Part shown: piece by piece, positions 38,808-49,261 of the stretch
Layout: each line of letters opens with the position of its first letter
How positions within the stretch are numbered: the stretch's first letter is position 1
From: Halomonas aestuarii
GTDB lineage: Bacteria > Pseudomonadota > Gammaproteobacteria > Pseudomonadales > Halomonadaceae
Reading direction: 5' to 3'
DNA length: 64,000 nt
Assembly (NCBI RefSeq): GCF_001886615.1
Contig: NZ_CP018139.1
Location: 496,001-560,000, forward strand
Made by a program: the position numbers and the translations under genes
The notes under the pieces: generated by a model
Seen by the model: only the letters and a program-made list of their open reading frames with translations
What the model was told of the DNA's origin: nothing
The model's database searches: none

Positions 38808-39173
38808 ATGTCGATGTTCCTGCTGGTCCTTGTCGTCTGCCTGGTCATCTTCGGAGGCATGGTGGCCCTGCTGATGCTCTCCGGCACCCCGCGCTTTCGC
38901 ACCGAGCCCGAGCACCTGCTGGAACTCTTCGACAAGGCGCTGGAAAGCCATGTCAACGAGACCGAGTGGAATACTGTCATCGGCTACCCGATCCGCCATG
39001 ACGACTACCTGGAAGGGATTCGGCGCCGGGCCCAGCGGCTGATGGACGAGCATGGGCGCCATGGCCGTGTGACCCGGGGAAAGCCGCTGCTCGATAGCGA
39101 GGGCCAGGAGGAGTTGGCGGCGCTGCGTGACCACCTGGCGGCCCACACCGCGCTGCAACGCGGCAAGGAGTGA
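38808..39173 (+). CDS. hypothetical protein with one N-terminal membrane segment
   Basis: A 121-residue protein I do not recognise. Residues 3-25 (FLLVLVVCLVIFGGMVALLM) form a membrane helix or uncleaved signal; the rest is charged and helical. CGGAG lies 10-14 bases before ATG 38808, and an in-frame ATG follows six bases later. Codon use matches neighbouring genes, so I accept it as coding. It precedes the AraC gene by 80 bases. Confidence 0.7.
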   Translation: MSMFLLVLVVCLVIFGGMVALLMLSGTPRFRTEPEHLLELFDKALESHVNETEWNTVIGYPIRHDDYLEGIRRRAQRLMDEHGRHGRVTRGKPLLDSEGQEELAALRDHLAAHTALQRGKE

Positions 39174-39253
39174 CGCACAGCGTTGAAGCGCCGCCCCTCA
39201 CGCTGTGGTGTCATGGAAGTCATGCACCTGACATGTCCAGCCGGAGGCCACTC

Positions 39254-40066
39254 ATGACCAGTGCCATCCGCCAGATCCCGCTTGACACCACGATCCACCA
39301 CCACGCTCACGACTTCCACCAGATCGTGATCGGCCTGAGGGGCGAGGCGCAGTTCGAGATCGAGGGATTGGGAGGGTCCATCTCGGCCTTCTCGGGCTGC
39401 ATCGTGCCGGCCAACCACCTGCACTCCTTTGCCGGCACCCGAGACAACCACCAGCTGGTGCTGGACATGCCCCGCACGGCCTTCGCCATGACGGGCCACC
39501 AGGGCGACCTGGTTCGCCTGTTCGATGCGCCACGCTTCTTTGCGCTCGACAGCGCCCTGCGCCACTACCTGGAGTTCCTGCGCCAGGAACTGCGCCTGCT
39601 GGCCCGCGACGGACACGTGCCCCCCCTCCATCAGGAGCGACTGGCCGGCACCCTGCTGGGCGCCCTGCATGCCCGCCTGGCCAGCGAGCCGGCGACCTCC
39701 GGGCGCCGCCTTGACCTGGCGGCCCTGGACCGCTTCATCGACCGTCACCTGGGCGACCCGCTTCGCGTCGCCGACCTCGCCGCCGAGGCGTGCCTGAGCG
39801 AGGCGCACTTCCGCGAACGCTTCCGCCAGCGCACGGGGCTCTCACCCTGGCAGTACGTGACGCGCCGCCGACTGGAGAGCGCCCGCCACTGGATACAGCA
39901 GAGCCGGCTGCCGCTGTCCGAGATCGCCGAGCTGACCGGCTTCACCAGCCTGAGCGCCCTGTCTCGGGCGCATCGCCAGGCCTTCGGCCAGCCCCCCAGC
40001 CAGCTGCGTCGGGACCGACGCGGTCGGCTCTCCCAACGGCCCGCTCTCGCAGACGACAACGCTTAG
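39254..40066 (+). CDS. AraC family transcriptional regulator, likely regulator of putA/putP
   Basis: A 270-residue regulator with an N-terminal cupin sensor (HHHAHDFHQIVIGLRGEAQF, CIVPANHLHSFAG) and two C-terminal helix-turn-helix motifs (LRVADLAAEACLSEAHFRER and LPLSEIAELTGFTSLSALSR). CGGAGG precedes ATG 39254; the longer open frame from 39170 lies inside the spacer. It sits 185 bases upstream of putA in the same direction. In Pseudomonas the AraC-type PruR activates proline catabolism, and the PutA here lacks its own DNA-binding domain, so a PruR-like role is plausible inference. Confidence 0.86.
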   Translation: MTSAIRQIPLDTTIHHHAHDFHQIVIGLRGEAQFEIEGLGGSISAFSGCIVPANHLHSFAGTRDNHQLVLDMPRTAFAMTGHQGDLVRLFDAPRFFALDSALRHYLEFLRQELRLLARDGHVPPLHQERLAGTLLGALHARLASEPATSGRRLDLAALDRFIDRHLGDPLRVADLAAEACLSEAHFRERFRQRTGLSPWQYVTRRRLESARHWIQQSRLPLSEIAELTGFTSLSALSRAHRQAFGQPPSQLRRDRRGRLSQRPALADDNA

Positions 40067-40251: not shown

Positions 40252-43200
40252 ATGTTAAACGCCAACACCATGCTGGCCGGCGAGACCTGGCAGCAGGAAC
40301 TCGACACCCTCTTCGCACGCATCAGTGATCACTATGTGGTCGACGAAGATGCCTTTGTTCGCGAACTGGTCGACCTCCTGTCGGCCGATGAGGCGGATGT
40401 CCAGCGCACCGCCCACCAGGCGGCGGAGCTGGTGCGAGAGGTCCGCGAGATGGACACCGCCGTGGACTCCATCGACGAGCTGCTCCAGCAGTTCAGCCTG
40501 GATACCCACGAGGGCCTGATGCTGATGTGCCTCGCCGAGGCGATGCTGCGCATCCCCGACAAGGCCACCGCCGACGCCCTGATCGAGGACAAGCTGGGAC
40601 CGTCGGACTGGAAGTCGTACCTCGGCCAGAGCGAGTCCTGGTTCGTCAACGCGTCCACCTGGGGCCTGCTGATGACCGGTCGCGTCATCAACATGGACAA
40701 GCCCAGGGAGGGCAAGCCCGCCCACTTCATCAACAAGCTGGTCAATCGCCTGGGTGAGCCGGTGATCCGGCGCGCCATGTATGAAGCGATGAAGATCATG
40801 GGCAAGCAGTTCGTGCTCGGCCGCGACATCAAGGAGGCGCTCAAGCGCTCCAGGCCGCTGTTCGACAAGGGCTACACCTACTCCTACGACATGCTCGGCG
40901 AAGCTGCCCGCACCCGGGCCGATGCCTCGCGGTATTTCGACGCCTATGCCGATGCCATCAGGCGCGTGGGCACGACCAGCAAGGCCCTGCCGGCGAAGAC
41001 GCCGCCGCCCTCGATCTCCATCAAGCTCTCGGCGCTCCACCCGCGCTACGAGTTCGGTCGGCGCGACCAGGTGCTGGAGGAACTGGTCGGCACGGTCCGC
41101 GAACTGGCCACCCTCGCCCGCGAGCACCACGTGGCGATCACCATCGATGCCGAGGAGGTCGATCGCCTGGAGCTGTCGCTGGAGGTCTTCCGGGCCGTCT
41201 ACGAGAGCCGGACCTGCCAGGGCTGGGGCCACTTCGGCCTGGTCGTGCAAGCCTACTCCACGCGCGCCATGCCGGTGTTGCACTACCTCAACCGCCTGGC
41301 CGACCTGCAGGGCGACGAGATCCCCATGCGCCTGGTCAAGGGCGCCTACTGGGACACCGAGATCAAGGAATCCCAGCAGATCGGCGCCGACGGCTATCCC
41401 GTCTATACCCGCAAGGCCAGCACCGACGTCGCCTACCTGGTGTGCGCCCGCTTCCTGCTGTCGGAGAACACCCGTGGGCGGATCTTCCCGCAGTTCGCGA
41501 CCCACAACGCGCATACCATCAGCACCATCCTGGACCTTGCCAATGCGGCCGACCGTCCCTTCGAGTTCCAGCGCCTGCACGGCATGGGCGAGGCCCTCTA
41601 CGACGTGGCGCTCAAGCGAGCTCCGAAGGGCACCTACTGCCGCATCTATGCGCCGGTGGGTGCCCACAAGGACCTGCTGCCCTACCTGGTGCGCCGCCTG
41701 CTCGAGAACGGGGCCAATTCCTCCTTCGTGCACCAGCTGGTGGATCCGCGCGTGCCGGTGGAGTCGCTGTGCGTCCACCCGGTGGAGACGCTGAAACCCT
41801 TCGCGACCTACGCCAACAGCAGGATTCCGTTGCCCAGGGACATCTACGGCCCGACGCGCCGGAACTCCAGGGGCGTCAACCTGAACATCAGCAGCCAGTA
41901 CCGGCCGCTCATCGATGAGATGGCGACCTTCATGGACAGGGAGTACCACACCCGGCCGCTGCTGGCCTTCGATGTCGCTGAAGACGCGAGTGAATGCCAC
42001 GACGTGCTCTGCCCCTTCGACCGCCAGGCCAGGGTAGGCAGCGTGCAGTGGACCACCAAGGATCAGGCCGCCAAGGCCGTGGACGCCGCCTGGGCCGCCT
42101 TCCCTCGCTGGGACGCCACGCCGGTGGCCGAGCGCGCCGCCATCATCAGCCGCCTGGCCGACCTGATGGAGGAAAACCTCGCCGAGCTGATGACGTTGTG
42201 CTCGCGGGAGGGCGGCAAGCTGTTGACCGACGGCGTCGACGAGATCCGCGAGGCGGTGGACTTCTGCCGCTATTACGCCGTACGGGCCGAGGAGTGCTTC
42301 GCCAGTCCCACCCGTCTGCCGGGGCCCACCGGTGAGTCCAACGACCTGATGATGGGCGGCAAGGGGGTATTCGCGGCGATCAGCCCATGGAACTTCCCGA
42401 TCGCGATCTTCTGCGGTCAGGTGGTGGCCGCCGCCGTCTCGGGCAACACGGTGCTGGCCAAGCCCGCCGAGCAGACCTCGCTGGCCGCCCACCGCATCAT
42501 CGAGCTGCTGCAGGAAGCCGGCATGCCGCGTGACGTGGTGCAGCTGCTCCCCGGCGACGGTCCCACCGTGGGCAGCGTGCTGACCGGCGACCCGCGCATC
42601 ACCGGCGTGGTCTTCACCGGCGGCACCGATACCGCCCAGATCATCAATCGTGCCCTGGCGGCCCGCGAAGGCGCCCCCCTGCCGACGCTGATCGCCGAGA
42701 CCGGTGGCATGAACGCCATGATCGTCGACTCCACCGCCCTGCCCGAACAGGTCGTGGCCGACGTCATCCAGTCGGCCTTCCAGAGTGCCGGCCAGCGCTG
42801 CTCCGCTCTGCGCGTTCTCTACGTACAGGAGGAGGTGGCCGACCGGGTCATCGAGATCCTCAAGGGCGCCATGGACGAGCTGCACGTGGGCGACCCGCGC
42901 CACCTGGGCACCGACGTGGGCCCGGTGATCGACGAGGAGGCCCGCCAGGGACTCACCGCGCACATCGACAGGCTGAAGGCCGAGGGGCGCCTGCTGGCCG
43001 AGACGCGACTCGATCCCGCCCACACCGCCAACGGCACCTTCGTCGCGCCGGTCGCGTTCGAGATCGATGGCGTCGAGGCCCTGGAGCGCGAACAGTTCGG
43101 CCCCGTGCTGCACATCGTGCGCTACAAAGCCAGCGAGATCGACAAGGTGGTCGACGCCATCAATGGCCGGGGCTATGGCCTGACCTTCGGCGTGCACAGC

Positions 43201-43449
43201 CGGAATCAGTCCTTCGCCAACGAGATCGCGAGGAAGGTCCGTGCCGGGAACGTATACATCAACCGCAACATCATCGGTGCAGTGGTGGGCGTACAGCCCT
43301 TTGGCGGCCAGGGGCTCTCGGGTACCGGGCCCAAGGCCGGCGGTCCGCACTACCTGCTGCGCTTCGCCACCGAGAAGACCGTGACGGAGAACACCGCCGC
43401 CCTGGGGGGCAATGCATCGCTGTTGACCCTGGGGGCCGAAGAGGGGTGA
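40252..43449 (+). CDS. putA: bifunctional proline dehydrogenase/delta-1-pyrroline-5-carboxylate dehydrogenase
   Basis: Oxidises proline to glutamate in two steps, with FAD then NAD. The 1065 residues place it among minimal PutA proteins: there is no N-terminal ribbon-helix-helix, so it cannot act as its own repressor. The proline dehydrogenase barrel (about residues 150-500) shows SIKLSALHPRYEF, RLVKGAYWDTEIK and THNAHTI. The aldehyde dehydrogenase half (about 590-1040) shows SPWNFPIAIFCGQ, Glu816 in AETGGMNA and nucleophile Cys850 in GQRCSALR. Start ATG 40252 follows GGGGAG. putP follows after 205 bases, without a terminator between them. Part of its 3' end is duplicated at 45205-45400. Confidence 0.96.
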   Translation: MLNANTMLAGETWQQELDTLFARISDHYVVDEDAFVRELVDLLSADEADVQRTAHQAAELVREVREMDTAVDSIDELLQQFSLDTHEGLMLMCLAEAMLRIPDKATADALIEDKLGPSDWKSYLGQSESWFVNASTWGLLMTGRVINMDKPREGKPAHFINKLVNRLGEPVIRRAMYEAMKIMGKQFVLGRDIKEALKRSRPLFDKGYTYSYDMLGEAARTRADASRYFDAYADAIRRVGTTSKALPAKTPPPSISIKLSALHPRYEFGRRDQVLEELVGTVRELATLAREHHVAITIDAEEVDRLELSLEVFRAVYESRTCQGWGHFGLVVQAYSTRAMPVLHYLNRLADLQGDEIPMRLVKGAYWDTEIKESQQIGADGYPVYTRKASTDVAYLVCARFLLSENTRGRIFPQFATHNAHTISTILDLANAADRPFEFQRLHGMGEALYDVALKRAPKGTYCRIYAPVGAHKDLLPYLVRRLLENGANSSFVHQLVDPRVPVESLCVHPVETLKPFATYANSRIPLPRDIYGPTRRNSRGVNLNISSQYRPLIDEMATFMDREYHTRPLLAFDVAEDASECHDVLCPFDRQARVGSVQWTTKDQAAKAVDAAWAAFPRWDATPVAERAAIISRLADLMEENLAELMTLCSREGGKLLTDGVDEIREAVDFCRYYAVRAEECFASPTRLPGPTGESNDLMMGGKGVFAAISPWNFPIAIFCGQVVAAAVSGNTVLAKPAEQTSLAAHRIIELLQEAGMPRDVVQLLPGDGPTVGSVLTGDPRITGVVFTGGTDTAQIINRALAAREGAPLPTLIAETGGMNAMIVDSTALPEQVVADVIQSAFQSAGQRCSALRVLYVQEEVADRVIEILKGAMDELHVGDPRHLGTDVGPVIDEEARQGLTAHIDRLKAEGRLLAETRLDPAHTANGTFVAPVAFEIDGVEALEREQFGPVLHIVRYKASEIDKVVDAINGRGYGLTFGVHSRNQSFANEIARKVRAGNVYINRNIIGAVVGVQPFGGQGLSGTGPKAGGPHYLLRFATEKTVTENTAALGGNASLLTLGAEEG

Positions 43450-43654
43450 AGGGCGCCTGCTGTTGAAGCACTGCGGAACGACAATCGGAAACAGGAGGGA
43501 CGTATCGAGATGGAAAGGCGGGCGTCAAGGGGGGACCCTTTGACGCGAACAGAAGACGACGTACAACAACAAGGTGTGTCACTACCGGATTCAACAAGGA
43601 AAATCACTGACCGGTCGGTGCCATTTCCGTCCTGACGAACTGGAGAGTTTTTAC
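43450..43654 (+). promoter_or_regulatory. leader of the first putP, duplicated before the second putP
   Basis: This 205-base spacer is similar over most of its length to the leader of the second putP (45401-45617). It includes a hairpin at 43522-43546 (GCGTCAA with TTGACGC) and the shared block CACTACCGGATTCAACAAGG near the gene. No gene is visible in it. Shared structure suggests a conserved regulatory leader or simply recent duplication. Confidence 0.6.
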
Positions 43655-45145
43655 ATGGCTATTGGTGTCTGGATAAGTCTTTTTGGGTACTTTGCGCTGA
43701 TGATCGCCATCGGCATCTATGCGATGCGACGGTCGACGTCATCCTCCGAAGACTACGTGCTCGGTGGCCGCAACCTCAGTCCCAAGGTGGCGGCCCTGTC
43801 GGCCGGCGCCTCGGACATGAGCGGCTGGTTGCTGCTCGGCTTGCCCGGGGCGCTGTTTGTCTCCGGCCTGGGGTCGGCCTGGATCGGCATCGGCCTGCTG
43901 GTGGGGGCGTTCTTCAACTGGACGCTGGTCGCGCCGCGACTGCGTGAGCAGACCGTACACTACAACAACGCTATTACCATTCCGTCCTTCCTGGCCAACC
44001 GGTTCCCGACCCAGGCGCTCTCCCTGCGCACGGTGTCCGCGATCGTCATCGTGATCTTCTTCGCGGTCTATACCGCCTCGGGGCTGGTGGCTGGCGGCAA
44101 GCTGTTTGAAAGTGCCTTTGCCGGCATCTTCAATTTCGGTGGCCTGAGTGACTACGCCGTCGGCATCGTCATCACCCTGGGCGTGGTGCTGGCCTATACG
44201 GTGGTGGGCGGCTTCCTGGCCGTGAGCATGACGGACTTCGTGCAGGGCTGCATCATGATGCTGGCGCTGGTCATCATGCCGGCGGTAGTGCTGTTCGGTG
44301 AAGGGGGCGGCGGCTTCTCCCAGGCGTCACAGACCCTGAACGAAGTCGACCCGAACCTGCTGACATGGACTCAGGGGCTGACCTTCATCGGCTGGCTGTC
44401 GGCCGTCACCTGGGGCCTCGGCTATTTCGGTCAGCCGCACATCATCGTGCGCTTCATGGCCATTCGTACCCTGAAGGACGTCCCTGTCGCCCGCACCATC
44501 GGCATGTCCTGGATGGCCATTTCCCTGATCGGCGCCATCTCACTGGGCATCTTCGGGCGTGCCTATGCCGTGCGCAACGGCATGAACGTCGAGGACCCGG
44601 AGACCATCTTCATCATCCTGGCGGACCTGCTGTTCCACCCGCTGATCACCGGCTTCCTCTTTGCCGCCCTGCTGGCTGCCGTCATGAGCACCATCTCCAG
44701 TCAGCTCCTGGTATCCGCCTCTTCCCTGACGGAAGATTTCTACCGCCTGTTCCTGCGTAAGGAGGCGAGCGAGAAGGAAAGTGTCACCGTCGGCCGGGCC
44801 TGCGTGGTCCTCGTCGGTGCGGTGGCAGCGGTCATTGCCGCGGATCCGAACTCCCAGGTTCTGGCGCTGGTCAGTAACGCCTGGGCGGGCTTCGGTGCGG
44901 CCTTTGGCCCTCTGATCATTCTGTCGCTGATGTGGCCGCGCACCAACGGCGCCGGTGCCATCGCGGGCATGGTGGTCGGTGCCACTACCGTCATGATCTG
45001 GATCTCTCTGGGCTGGAACGCATCGTTCATGGGTGGCCCGGGCGTCTACGAGATCATTCCCGGCTTCATTGCCGCCTGGATCGCCATCATGGTGGGCAGT
45101 CTCGCCACCGCCGATGCCGGCGAGTATCAGCACATCCATCGCTGA
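43655..45145 (+). CDS. putP: sodium/proline symporter PutP, first copy
   Basis: Inner-membrane Na+/proline symporter of the SSS family (496 residues, about thirteen helices). Typical PutP text includes SEDYVLGGRNLSPKVAALSA, GASDMSGWLLLGLPGA, and GYFGQPHIIVRFMAIR. It imports proline as nutrient and osmoprotectant. Start ATG 43655 follows TGGAGAG. It is probably expressed with putA. The second copy at 45618 is highly similar along its whole length, including a shared C terminus around YEIIPGFIAA. Confidence 0.95.
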   Translation: MAIGVWISLFGYFALMIAIGIYAMRRSTSSSEDYVLGGRNLSPKVAALSAGASDMSGWLLLGLPGALFVSGLGSAWIGIGLLVGAFFNWTLVAPRLREQTVHYNNAITIPSFLANRFPTQALSLRTVSAIVIVIFFAVYTASGLVAGGKLFESAFAGIFNFGGLSDYAVGIVITLGVVLAYTVVGGFLAVSMTDFVQGCIMMLALVIMPAVVLFGEGGGGFSQASQTLNEVDPNLLTWTQGLTFIGWLSAVTWGLGYFGQPHIIVRFMAIRTLKDVPVARTIGMSWMAISLIGAISLGIFGRAYAVRNGMNVEDPETIFIILADLLFHPLITGFLFAALLAAVMSTISSQLLVSASSLTEDFYRLFLRKEASEKESVTVGRACVVLVGAVAAVIAADPNSQVLALVSNAWAGFGAAFGPLIILSLMWPRTNGAGAIAGMVVGATTVMIWISLGWNASFMGGPGVYEIIPGFIAAWIAIMVGSLATADAGEYQHIHR

Positions 45146-45175
45146 ACGATCACGTGCCACGCGATCGCCTTCGTC

Positions 45176-45201
45176 AAGGGGCTCCTGCGGGAGCCCCTTT
45201 T
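45176..45201 (+). terminator. intrinsic terminator of the first putP
   Basis: AAGGGGCTCC (45176-45185) pairs with GGAGCCCCTT (45190-45199) around TGCG and ends in TTTT. Its sequence resembles the terminator after the second putP, so it was part of the duplicated unit. Confidence 0.9.
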
Positions 45202-45204
45202 CAT

Positions 45205-45400
45205 GCCATGAGGATCGACAAGGGGTCGACGCCCTCAACGAGCGAGGCTATGGTCCGAACGTCTGCGCACAAGGCGGGAACCCGCCCTTCCCCAACAAGA
45301 TGGCGGGGCCGCTTTGCCACCGGGCAGAGCCTGATGGAGCACACCACCCCCCCGGGTGGCAACACATCATGCGTTGACAGCGGGTACCGAAGCGGTTTGG
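45205..45400 (+). pseudogene. decayed copy of the 3' end of putA
   Basis: GATCGACAAGG at 45214 matches putA at 43138, and similarity continues with many substitutions through GGCTATGG (43173 versus 45247) and the last codons (ACCGAGAAGACC versus ACCGGGCAGAGC). The copy has lost one base just after the start of similarity (a frameshift), about 125 bases corresponding to putA 43234-43360, and the stop codon (TGA became TGG at 45398). It cannot encode anything and marks the left edge of a tandem duplication. Confidence 0.82.
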
Positions 45401-45617
45401 TGGGCGCCTTGCTATTGAAGCACGGCGGAACAACACTGAAACGGCAGAAGGAAGGTGTCGAGATGGAAAGGCTGGCGTCGAAGGGGCTGTCGCCCCTGGA
45501 CGTTCACAGCAGAGAGCGTACAAGAACAAGGCGTGCCACTACCGGATTCAACAAGGAAAAGCACTCGGCGGTTGGAGCGGTTTCCGCCCTGACGAACTGG
45601 AGAACTGGAGAACTTTC
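45401..45617 (+). promoter_or_regulatory. leader of the second putP, duplicate of the first
   Basis: Aligned with 43450-43654 it keeps GGGCGCCT, TTGAAGCAC, GAGATGGAAAGG, CACTACCGGATTCAACAAGG and CCTGACGAACTGGAG. The hairpin is kept with changed stem sequence: CGTC and AGGGGC pair with GCCCCT and GACG (45476-45502). CTGGAGAA is repeated directly before the start codon. There is no gene in this stretch. Confidence 0.6.
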
Positions 45618-47108
45618 ATGGCTATTGGTGTCTGGATAAGTCTTTTTGCATACTTTGCGCTCATGATAGCCATCGGCTTTTATGCGATGCGCAAATCCAC
45701 GTCCACGTCCGAGGATTACATGCTGGGTGGCCGACAACTCAGTCCACAGGTGGCGGCCCTGTCGGCCGGGGCCTCGGACATGAGCGGCTGGTTGCTGCTG
45801 GGGTTGCCCGGGGCGATGTTCGTCTCCGGCCTGGGATCTGCCTGGATCGGCATCGGCCTGCTGGTGGGGGCGTTCTTCAACTGGACGCTGGTCGCCCCCC
45901 GCCTTCGCGAGCAGACGCTTCACTATAATGATGCGATCACCATCCCGGAATTCCTGGGAAACCGCTTCCCGACCCAGGCCATCCCGCTGAGGACGGTATC
46001 CGCGATTGTCATCGTGGTCTTCTTCGCGGTTTACACGGCGTCGGGCCTGGTGGCAGGCGGCAAGCTGTTCGAGAGCGCCTTCGCCGGCATCTTCAACTTC
46101 GGCGGCCTGAGCGACTACTCTGCGGGCGTCATCATCACCCTGGGCGTGGTGCTTGCGTACACGGTGGTGGGCGGCTTCCTGGCCGTGAGCATGACGGACT
46201 TCGTGCAGGGCTGCATCATGATGCTGGCCCTGATCGTCATGCCGGCGGTGGTGCTCTTCGGCGAGGGGGGCGGCGGTTTCTCCCAGGCATCACAAACCCT
46301 GCGTGAGGTCGATCCCACGCTACTCTCGTGGACGGAGGGACTGACCATCGTCGGCTGGCTGTCGGCGGTGACCTGGGGGCTGGGGTATTTCGGACAGCCG
46401 CACATCATCGTGCGCTTCATGGCCATCCGGTCACAGAAGGATGTTCCCATTGCCCGTAACATCGGCATGAGCTGGATGCTCATCTCCCTGATCGGCGCGG
46501 TCTCCCTGGGTATCTTCGGACGCGCCTATGCCGTGCGCAACGGCATGAACGTTGAAGATCCAGAGACCATCTTCATCATCCTGGCGGACCTGCTGTTCCA
46601 TCCGCTGGTCACCGGCTTCCTCTTTGCGGCCCTGCTCGCCGCAATCATGAGTACCATTTCCAGTCAGCTCCTGGTGTCATCCTCTTCCCTGACGGAGGAC
46701 TTCTATCGCCTCTTCCTGCGCAAGGAAGCGAAAGAGAAAGAGATCGTCGCCGTTGGCCGGCTTTGTGTCGTGGCGGTGGGGCTGGTGGCCATCGTCATCG
46801 CGTCCGACCCGAACTCCAAGGTGCTGGGGCTGGTCAGTAACGCCTGGGCAGGCTTTGGTGCGGCGTTCGGCCCGCTCATCATCCTGTCGCTGATGTGGCC
46901 GCGCACCAACGGCGCCGGCGCCCTGGCGGGGATGGTGGTGGGTGCCGTCACCGTCATGCTCTGGATTTCACTGGGCTGGAACGCATCCTTCATGGGGGGA
47001 CCCGGCGTGTACGAGATCATTCCCGGCTTCATCGCGGCCTTCATTGCCATCCTGGTGGTGAGCAGCGTGACGGCCGATGCCGGTGAATACCAGCAGATCA
47101 CTCGCTGA
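45618..47108 (+). CDS. putP: sodium/proline symporter PutP, second copy
   Basis: 496 residues, same length as the first copy and identical over long stretches (for example the segments around GASDMSGWLLLGLPGA and TDFVQGCIMMLAL), with scattered conservative differences such as FAYFALMIAIGFYAMRKSTS for FGYFALMIAIGIYAMRRSTS. Both copies are intact and keep the sodium-site region, so this is a functional paralogue, possibly with a different expression pattern or affinity. GGAGAAC precedes ATG 45618. It has its own leader and terminator. Confidence 0.94.
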   Translation: MAIGVWISLFAYFALMIAIGFYAMRKSTSTSEDYMLGGRQLSPQVAALSAGASDMSGWLLLGLPGAMFVSGLGSAWIGIGLLVGAFFNWTLVAPRLREQTLHYNDAITIPEFLGNRFPTQAIPLRTVSAIVIVVFFAVYTASGLVAGGKLFESAFAGIFNFGGLSDYSAGVIITLGVVLAYTVVGGFLAVSMTDFVQGCIMMLALIVMPAVVLFGEGGGGFSQASQTLREVDPTLLSWTEGLTIVGWLSAVTWGLGYFGQPHIIVRFMAIRSQKDVPIARNIGMSWMLISLIGAVSLGIFGRAYAVRNGMNVEDPETIFIILADLLFHPLVTGFLFAALLAAIMSTISSQLLVSSSSLTEDFYRLFLRKEAKEKEIVAVGRLCVVAVGLVAIVIASDPNSKVLGLVSNAWAGFGAAFGPLIILSLMWPRTNGAGALAGMVVGAVTVMLWISLGWNASFMGGPGVYEIIPGFIAAFIAILVVSSVTADAGEYQQITR

Positions 47109-47147
47109 CGCGTGAGAAAAGACGCGTGCGAGGCACGCAATGTCGTG

Positions 47148-47173
47148 AAAGGGCTCCTGCGGGGGCCCTTTTT
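47148..47173 (+). terminator. intrinsic terminator of the second putP
   Basis: AAAGGGCTCC pairs with GGGGGCCCTTT (one G-U pair) and ends in TTTTT, similar in sequence to the terminator at 45176-45201. Confidence 0.88.
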
Positions 47174-47289
47174 GATTTGTGTCGTCTGATGGCCCACCGA
47201 ATCCCCATGGCCGCCACCGTTATCCGCGTCGTGCCTGGACGAGATCACCACCGTACTCGACAGGCCTGACCCCGCCGGCGCCCGAACCC

Positions 47290-47329
47290 CGATACGCAAA
47301 CGCCGCCCTCGGGCGGCGTTTGCGTATCG
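47290..47329. terminator. long bidirectional terminator hairpin
   Basis: An uninterrupted inverted repeat (47290-47308 with 47311-47329) gives an 18-bp stem with a CTCG loop. AAACGCCGCCC and GGGCGGCGTTT give A/T flanks in both directions. It lies 22 bases beyond the minus-strand membrane-protein gene. Confidence 0.7.
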
Positions 47330-47351
47330 TGGCCCTCCTGACAGGCCGGGC

Positions 47352-47845: not shown

Positions 47846-47933
47846 AGATCACCTCGCTAGATTGAAAGCTCAGGACACCCCATGTCCGTGGCTGACGGGC
47901 GACCGCACTGCAGATGACACAAGGAGCATGTCC

Positions 47934-48449
47934 ATGGCACCCAAGACGCTGAACACCACGGCCTCTCTCGTGACGGCCGGCATCCTCGCCGCCCAGGTGG
48001 CCATGGCCTATCAGGGCGACGACCTCCATGGGCGCGAGGCAGTCGCCAAGGGCGAGGTCGCGAACGACCGTGACGCCCTCGAGATAGTCGGGGACCTCGA
48101 GGTTTCTGACGAGCGCGGTGCCGCCGGCAGCATGGACCGCATGTCGGTCGAGCCGTTGGTCAACGATTATCCGCCGGGAGTCGCTGCCTCCCGAATTCAG
48201 CCGTATGCGGGCGCCGGCCACCGCTACACCCGCCTCTCCGAGGAGGCACTGGACGGACTGGGCATCGACGAACCCTATGGCCTGACCGGATGGCTCGACG
48301 CGGATCTGGGCGTCACGTACCACTCGCGGGGCGAGGCCGCCCCCCGGCATGCCGACGTCATTGGCGGCTCCAGCATCGGCGGCATGAAACGCGGCCAGAT
48401 GGCGATCGACCCGACGACCATCGGCGGCGCAGTCACCTTCCGTTTCTGA
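47934..48449 (+). CDS. shrunken OmpW-like outer-membrane protein
   Basis: A 171-residue secreted protein (signal-like NTTASLVTAGILAAQVAMA) that resembles the ompW product encoded just downstream but is shorter. RIQPYAGAGHRYTRLSEEAL matches RVQPYAGVGVNYTTFSDEEI of OmpW, and both end IDPxxxxxGxxFRF with a terminal phenylalanine. The first half has lost the regular barrel-strand pattern (GREAVAKGEVANDRDALEIV against TRVGVAKVEPKSDNGKL). AAGGAG lies seven bases before ATG 47934, and the gene has its own terminator, so it still looks expressed. It may be a decaying paralogue or a protein with a new role. Confidence 0.65.
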   Translation: MAPKTLNTTASLVTAGILAAQVAMAYQGDDLHGREAVAKGEVANDRDALEIVGDLEVSDERGAAGSMDRMSVEPLVNDYPPGVAASRIQPYAGAGHRYTRLSEEALDGLGIDEPYGLTGWLDADLGVTYHSRGEAAPRHADVIGGSSIGGMKRGQMAIDPTTIGGAVTFRF

Positions 48450-48472
48450 TCCCCCTGTCAACTGACATAACG

Positions 48473-48502
48473 CGCCGGGCCATTAGCCCGGCGTCCTGTT
48501 TT
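48473..48502 (+). terminator. intrinsic terminator of the OmpW-like gene
   Basis: CGCCGGGC (48473-48480) pairs with GCCCGGCG (48486-48493), followed by TCCTGTTTTT. Confidence 0.85.
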
Positions 48503-48628
48503 TGCGCCTTCAATCCCGTGCCGCCCAATTCTTGCGCTGGATCAATGCTGCAATGGCGAGGTATCGATAAACTTCGCTCGATGTCTGACGCGGCCAGTGG
48601 CCGCCCTATCGAAGCCAGGAGTCGACCC

Positions 48629-49261
48629 ATGCGCAAGAACGCCCTTCCCACCCTGCTGGCCGCCGGCCTTGCCGCCGCCGCCTTCACCTCCAGCACCCAG
48701 GCCTTCGCCTACGGCGCCGGGGACTTCTTCACCCGCGTGGGCGTGGCCAAGGTCGAGCCCAAGAGTGACAACGGCAAACTCACTGACGACGATCTGAAAA
48801 TCGACGTCGAGGACGATAGCGCCTTCGCCTTTACCCTGGGCTATCGCTTCACCGACAAGATCGGCATGGAGCTGCTGGCCGCCGAGCCCTTCGACCACGG
48901 TTTCAGCATCGCCGACGGGGCTGTTACCGGCTCCACCGATCACCTGCCGCCGACCCTGACCCTGCAGTACTACCCGCTGGGCGGCACCGACGCCCGCGTG
49001 CAGCCCTATGCCGGCGTGGGCGTCAACTACACCACGTTCTCCGACGAAGAAATCAGCCTTAATCAGAGCCTCGAGCTGGATGACTCCTGGGGCGCCGCCG
49101 GCCAGCTCGGCGTCGACCTGCTGATCGACGACAACTGGGCGCTCAACGCCGCCGCCTGGTACCTGGACATCGATACCGACGCGAGCCTGGACGGAACTGA
49201 TATCGGCACGGTCGAGATCGACCCGGTGGTGGTGATGGCGGGCCTCAGCTTCCGCTTCTGA
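48629..49261 (+). CDS. ompW: outer-membrane protein OmpW
   Basis: Eight-stranded outer-membrane barrel of 210 residues thought to pass small hydrophobic compounds; in relatives its level responds to salt and iron. A signal peptide (NALPTLLAAGLAAAAF to TQAFA) is followed by barrel strands with turns (FFTRVGVAKVEP, FAFTLGYRFTDKIGMELLAA, PTLTLQYYPLGG, VQPYAGVGVNYTTF) and the C-terminal strand VVMAGLSFRF. CAGGAG precedes ATG 48629. The open frame upstream to 48290 is not coding. The OmpW paralogue upstream is separated by a terminator. Confidence 0.9.
   Translation: MRKNALPTLLAAGLAAAAFTSSTQAFAYGAGDFFTRVGVAKVEPKSDNGKLTDDDLKIDVEDDSAFAFTLGYRFTDKIGMELLAAEPFDHGFSIADGAVTGSTDHLPPTLTLQYYPLGGTDARVQPYAGVGVNYTTFSDEEISLNQSLELDDSWGAAGQLGVDLLIDDNWALNAAAWYLDIDTDASLDGTDIGTVEIDPVVVMAGLSFRF

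Follow-up and report, generated by a model that had tools for sequence, protein, structure and literature searches.

The window analysed here, a 64,000-nucleotide stretch of the Halomonas aestuarii genome, corresponds to bases 496,001-560,000 of a single 3,543,891-base (3.54-Mb) contig and carries a proline locus in which putA is followed by leader 1, putP1, a terminator-like hairpin, a second, decayed putA 3' end, leader 2, putP2 and a second terminator-like hairpin (Table 1). The window putA scores under the cut-off of the trifunctional profile NF008772. Both transporter proteins exceed the curated TIGR02121 cut-off and, judging from this protein family, would both import proline with sodium; among solved structures, distant relatives were found and no close one. 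The AraC-family regulator gene next to putA may, from its position, have a role in proline control. The hairpin after putP1 is not listed by the terminator scan (only four T follow it). The 2 putP genes share 84.2% nucleotide and 88.7% amino acid identity, and the repeat spacing is constant, at approximately 1.96 kb; with copies that are 84% identical, an assembly repeat is an unlikely source of the tandem.

Table 1. Features of the proline locus, in window coordinates.
Feature	Position	Strand	Evidence
AraC-family regulator gene, upstream neighbour of putA	39170..40066	+	PF12833 1.6e-21; position shared by most same-genus loci
putA, bifunctional proline dehydrogenase / glutamate semialdehyde dehydrogenase, 1065 aa	40252..43449	+	NF008869 1598 bits, cut-off 747
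3' end of putA, repeated downstream	43137..43449	+	alignment
leader 1 (type B), 205 bases	43450..43654	+	78% identity with leader 2
putP1, sodium/proline symporter, 496 aa	43655..45145	+	TIGR02121 615.7 bits, cut-off 515.5
terminator-like hairpin after putP1	45176..45201	+	by eye; aligns with hairpin after putP2
decayed copy of putA 3' end, 196 bases	45210..45405	+	alignments, trees
leader 2 (type B)	45406..45617	+	leader comparison
putP2, sodium/proline symporter, 496 aa	45618..47108	+	TIGR02121 634.7 bits, cut-off 515.5
terminator-like hairpin after putP2	47147..47172	+	terminator scan

The original prediction explained this arrangement by the head-to-tail duplication of a unit of about 2 kb, comprising the putA 3' end, leader, putP and terminator, followed by decay of the redundant putA end. 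Its description of the repeat was accurate: both 496-residue open reading frames are present, the sequence GATCGACAAGG starts at 43137 and again at 45213 (one base off the predicted 43138 and 45214), the putA stop codon (TGA, 43447-43449) corresponds to TGG (45398-45400) in the copy, and the copy has the 1-base and approximately 125-base deletions, to which global alignment adds further small indels, in agreement with decay. The fragment is alignable to putA and was compared with 87 putA tails, including that of the window itself and with several species represented twice; its alignment score is 101.9 with the window's own tail and at most 59.2 with any other. Given these scores and the expected order and strand of the fragment before leader 2 and putP2, chance resemblance does not appear to be a serious option. 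In phylogenetic analysis, the fragment groups with the window putA tail (SH-aLRT/bootstrap 98.5/100, 190 columns), also when the last 45 columns are omitted (93.9/99, 145 columns), on a long branch of 0.50-0.64 changes per site in the 2 tail trees. Similarly, leader 1 pairs with leader 2 in a tree of 12 type-B leaders (99/100), the other ten being at most 73% identical to leader 1 and at most 67% to leader 2. Thus, the repeated flanks are mutually closest in both comparisons, and the putA end and leader repeats derive from a single source; for these parts, the predicted duplication stands. The stretches following putP1 and putP2 were also considered as evidence of descent and are too short to tell.

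The transporter genes appear to have a different history from that predicted. Four putP trees were built, from 96, 40, 58 and 66 genes; the 96-row tree contained a very long second row from L091, the 40-row tree had lost many same-genus rows to de-duplication and was rebuilt as the 58-row tree, and the long row L160 was left out of the 66-row tree. All four place putP1 and putP2 apart, with different closest relatives. In the 58- and 66-row trees, putP2 falls within an 8-row Halomonas clade (100/99), with putP1 outside. The latter groups with L114 and L083 in the 96-row tree and, in the 66-row tree, with L147, L158, L159 and the L143-L155 group in an 11-row set supported at 97/91; in the 58-row tree this set reaches 91/81 and is unstarred, and no starred set there holds putP1. 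Distances agree with the trees. The 2 genes differ from each other at 236 nucleotides, whereas putP2 differs from the 7 other members of its clade at 156-200, and in a codon bootstrap putP2 was nearer to the clade member than to putP1 in 2000/2000 replicates for six of these and in 1977/2000 for L121. Synonymous divergence (dS) is 0.61 between putP1 and putP2 and 0.40-0.47 between putP2 and five clade species (L115, L117, L118, L119 and L120; L116 and L121 were left out of this calculation), with dN of 0.071 and 0.030-0.037, respectively. Of 43 sites that distinguish the clade consensus from the remaining sequences, putP1 shows the outside state at 20 and the clade state at 12, compared with 5 and 30, respectively, for putP2. 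Accordingly, these trees and distances do not make the putP genes each other's closest relatives. Approximately unbiased (AU) tests of their sisterhood gave p values of 0.033 (40 rows), 0.203 (58 rows) and 0.219 (66 rows), so that sisterhood appears disfavoured and not firmly rejected.

These data bear directly on the predicted scheme, in which the whole unit, putP included, would have been duplicated in this lineage and putP1 would since have diverged faster. The flank trees are what it calls for, the AU p values of 0.20 and 0.22 leave room for it, and 22 of the 56 residues differing between the transporters are changes private to putP1, at positions where putP2, the clade and the rest all agree. 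However, a duplication within the lineage should leave dS below the species divergence, and the observed 0.61 lies above it; moreover, at 15 of the 56 residues putP1 has the outside state and putP2 the clade state, for which faster change alone is insufficient. We therefore regard this scheme as quite unlikely.

The origin of putP1 was approached through its nearest matches. The best listed protein match, with the 8000 candidates sharing most words scored, is 91% identical, Marinobacter L091 shares 91.7% identity with putP1 and 87.3% with putP2, and the best locus match reaches 85.5% nucleotide identity; no donor was identified among the 8000 scored protein candidates or the loci, which match at 85.5% or less. 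Nor is the composition of putP1 odd (GC3 0.841 vs 0.827 for putP2); it is ordinary and uninformative. The first 31 nucleotides of putP1 and putP2 are identical, and other loci match at up to 30 of the 31. The placement of putP1 conflicts with that of its neighbours, since it lies outside the clade and yet the window putA has low dS (0.32-0.37) to L115, L117, L118 and L122; neighbour history was judged here from putA dS. The last approximately 35 bases of the window putA are unlike those of the same four loci and resemble those of loci with type-B leaders.

Thirteen window markers were mapped on 52 fetched same-genus loci. By our own count, putA lies directly before putP in 36 of the 52. Seven loci (L143, L146, L149, L150, L152, L154 and L155) have the order AraC - putP - putA, with a putA of 51% identity; L147 and L148 carry both systems, L156 and L157 have putP together with the 51% putA and lack the upstream markers, and L164 starts too close to a contig end for its upstream layout. 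No putA is found at this place in L119, L135, L144 and L151. A type-B leader with putA-end remains was detected above shuffled sequences in L119, L135 and L151 but not in L144, and AraC remains are visible by eye upstream of putP in the same three. Thus, L119, L135 and L151 have lost AraC and putA here, with end remnants left before the type-B leader. Because putP also follows a type-B leader where a genome lacks putA at this locus, it is plausible that putP2 can work without an adjacent putA. Another putA (51-52%) is located elsewhere in the genomes of L119, L135, L144 and L151, as well as in that of the window, where this second, 52% identical gene lies outside the window (G000:C1:1660508-1663543).

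A further putA-tail scar was found in Onishia taeanensis USBA-857 (L106), where it separates putP from a paralogue of 51% identity, putP'; the scar is 80% identical over the aligned letters. The same search of strain As1101 revealed no putA-tail scar. The Onishia locus lends some appeal to a scheme in which a foreign segment of putA tail, leader and putP1 entered upstream of the resident gene through one-sided homology, the fragment being the resident's old putA end and tail 1 and leader 1 being foreign: it has the same layout with a second symporter that is unrelated enough, and in the window the putA end and both leaders are of type B, unlike in the closest species. Under this scheme, however, resident and foreign sequences should group apart, whereas the fragment and window tail, like the 2 leaders, are mutually closest, which makes it highly improbable.

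putP' itself (L106, 7306-8784) scores 678.2 bits, above the TIGR02121 cut-off. It is present in 39 of 90 same-genus genomes (E <= 1e-150), in 35 at 78-89% identity and in four at only approximately 60%, with no match in the genome of the window at this threshold; three genomes (G012, G013 and G059) carry both putP and a 78-89% putP'. With a threshold of more than 8 score units over the best of 40 shuffles, the spacer before putP matches the start of putP' (first 150 coding bases) in 25 of the 52 same-genus loci (e.g., L138, L136, L126 and L137), over its first approximately 40 codons. The match is absent from the other 27, including the type-B loci L119, L127, L135 and L151, and from both window leaders. 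In 12 hand-picked spacers, the part containing the small ORF exceeded all 30 shuffles in every case (narrowly in L125), and the part preceding it matched the region between putA and putP' better than shuffled sequences did in 11 of 12 (in L136 by one unit only), L123 being the exception. We read these remnants as probable traces of the in situ replacement of putP' by putP. Given that the start of the displaced putP' persists in the spacer of 25 of 52 loci, the locus appears to be a swap site for symporter genes.

The second putP copy is peculiar to the window among its relatives. At E <= 1e-150, putP is matched in 53 of 90 same-genus genomes, with two copies in that of the window and one in each of the 52 others. 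Across the family, 181 of 275 genomes are matched at E <= 1e-220, and seven (G000, G194, G228, G229, G234, G239 and G263) have at least 2 copies, which, among the matches listed, are 5.4-5.5 kb apart in G228, G229, G234 and G239; the G194 assembly is in pieces and the G263 positions are not among the matches listed. No second genome with two putP genes this close is known among the 275 (the G263 spacing is not given). In the fetched arrays of G239, G234 and G228 and on one G194 contig, the two putP genes flank a putA of 49-51% identity. Loci L167, L168, L169 and L170, from family genomes of another genus, are arrays of putP, second putA (49-51%) and putP. The distribution within the genus weighs on a further explanation, namely a duplication older than the split of the close species, with one copy lost in the relatives and putP1 surviving only here. 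An old event would account for a dS of 0.61, exceeding the divergence of putP2 from the five clade species, and for the long fragment branch. Nonetheless, we consider it unlikely: none of the 52 other putP-bearing same-genus genomes shows a second copy at E <= 1e-150, the close relatives L115, L116, L117, L120 and L122 have a different putA end and the other kind of spacer, with putP' remains (L118 being just under the threshold), and the fragment pairs with the window tail, and leader 1 with leader 2, to the exclusion of relatives.

We consider it moderately probable that the locus is a tandem of the putA tail and leader that holds two divergent putP alleles, one native and one probably acquired. 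Under this reading, the approximately 2-kb repeat would represent the putA 3' end and leader in tandem, and the transporters would be divergent alleles not made by that duplication, putP2 being the vertically inherited gene and putP1 coming from another lineage of the same PutP family. Recombination would most likely have set the two alleles head to tail, either by unequal exchange of the resident putA-leader-putP2 allele with one from the same or a closely related species in which putP1 followed the same leader, or by duplication and subsequent replacement of the upstream putP through homologous recombination. The putA end between the transporters would then have become redundant and decayed, while both transporters stayed intact. 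We infer both the acquisition of putP1 and the order of events. In favour of such stacking of alleles, beyond the trees, distances and site states, are the Marinobacter L091 identities and the Onishia locus, which provides an analogue. Counted against it are the AU tests, the absence of putP1 from any starred set of the 58-row tree, the lack of a known donor, the ordinary GC3 and the identical first 31 nucleotides of the two genes, which other loci nearly match; the long branch of the fragment would also fit an old duplication.

The original prediction further suggested selection for two proline symporters, which is partly supported. Both putP genes look intact while the fragment gathered several indels; thus, unless putP1 was a late arrival, selection has probably maintained both from the time the fragment became redundant. 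The dN/dS ratio of 0.116 between the two genes is no proof of selection for the pair because it would mostly reflect evolution in separate lineages. Since a terminator-like hairpin precedes it, putP2 is probably transcribed from its own leader, as far as the anatomy indicates; a promoter scan found none.

Two possible roles of the leader were considered and neither was retained. A small ORF in the spacers of many relatives, which might suggest a leader peptide, corresponds to the start of putP' and has no such match in the window leaders. A structured RNA was not established, the covariation evidence being weak. By eye, hairpins before putP look compensatory in 100 upstream sequences. RNAalifold, run on 87 of these after 13 unalignable ones were dropped by hand, kept a three-pair stem with a paired-cell fraction of 0.962 (shuffle maximum 0.943), 7 double changes (maximum 3) and 5 further pair types (maximum 6), relatedness being uncontrolled in these shuffles. 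Most neighbouring pairs were near the expectation for independent columns, and the stem was above its own shuffled mean in 73 of 87 sequences, with a small excess (15.2 vs 12.5). The leaders have no Rfam match at the gathering threshold, and sub-threshold matches lie only outside them. In many loci, the hairpin letters fall where putP' codons would be. A spacer that looks conserved can be what is left of a displaced gene. The hairpin-like stretches at 43536-43654 and 45493-45617, kept in many relatives, look weakened in both window leaders.

The window shares the order AraC - putA - leader - putP and the syntenic place with single-PutP (TIGR02121) putA-putP loci but differs from them in having two putP genes and a putA-end scar. 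The two-module arrays of Halomonadaceae (G239, G234, G228 and G194) likewise have two putP genes of this family in one locus; unlike in the window, a complete second putA (49-51% amino acid identity) separates the copies, which are 5.4-5.5 kb apart. The locus of O. taeanensis USBA-857 (L106, also L171) shares the succession of putA, putP, putA-tail scar and second symporter, the latter, however, being the approximately 50% paralogue putP' and not a member of the same family branch. In situ gene displacement and mosaic operons are characterised by a gene in a conserved neighbourhood with a history unlike that of its neighbours. The window resembles them in this respect, except that the native gene has not been replaced and the newcomer lies next to it. 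Among the literature searched, this tandem and the putP' scars are described in no title or abstract opening.

Whether proline symporters are repeatedly exchanged at the position behind putA in Halomonadaceae, leaving legible scars, is, in our estimation, an evenly balanced question; the window would then hold two stacked alleles of one family, each behind its own copy of the leader, and amount to a fixed 'heterozygote' for proline uptake. The scars in question are the putP' starts in spacers (25/52), the putA tails between symporters (the window and Onishia) and the fused AraC and putA ends where putA has been lost. The tandem can be understood as a result of repeated symporter exchange at a single place, and is an evolutionary detail of moderate interest rather than a new system. 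Its look of a plain duplication seems misleading, as similar neighbours and a scar are present and yet flanks and genes differ in history. Symporter replacement behind one catabolic gene is replicated many times at this locus, so that one can ask whether the symporter that stays is determined by salt, by proline supply or by the leader.

Two minor features lie downstream of putP2. A strong 22-base inverted repeat (47287-47332; 95% complementary, 2 bases between the arms) is perhaps a two-way terminator. Further on, a short ORF (47862-48449) before the OmpW gene (48290-49261) has a weak OmpW resemblance and may be a shortened OmpW copy, since several relatives carry two OmpW-like genes here.
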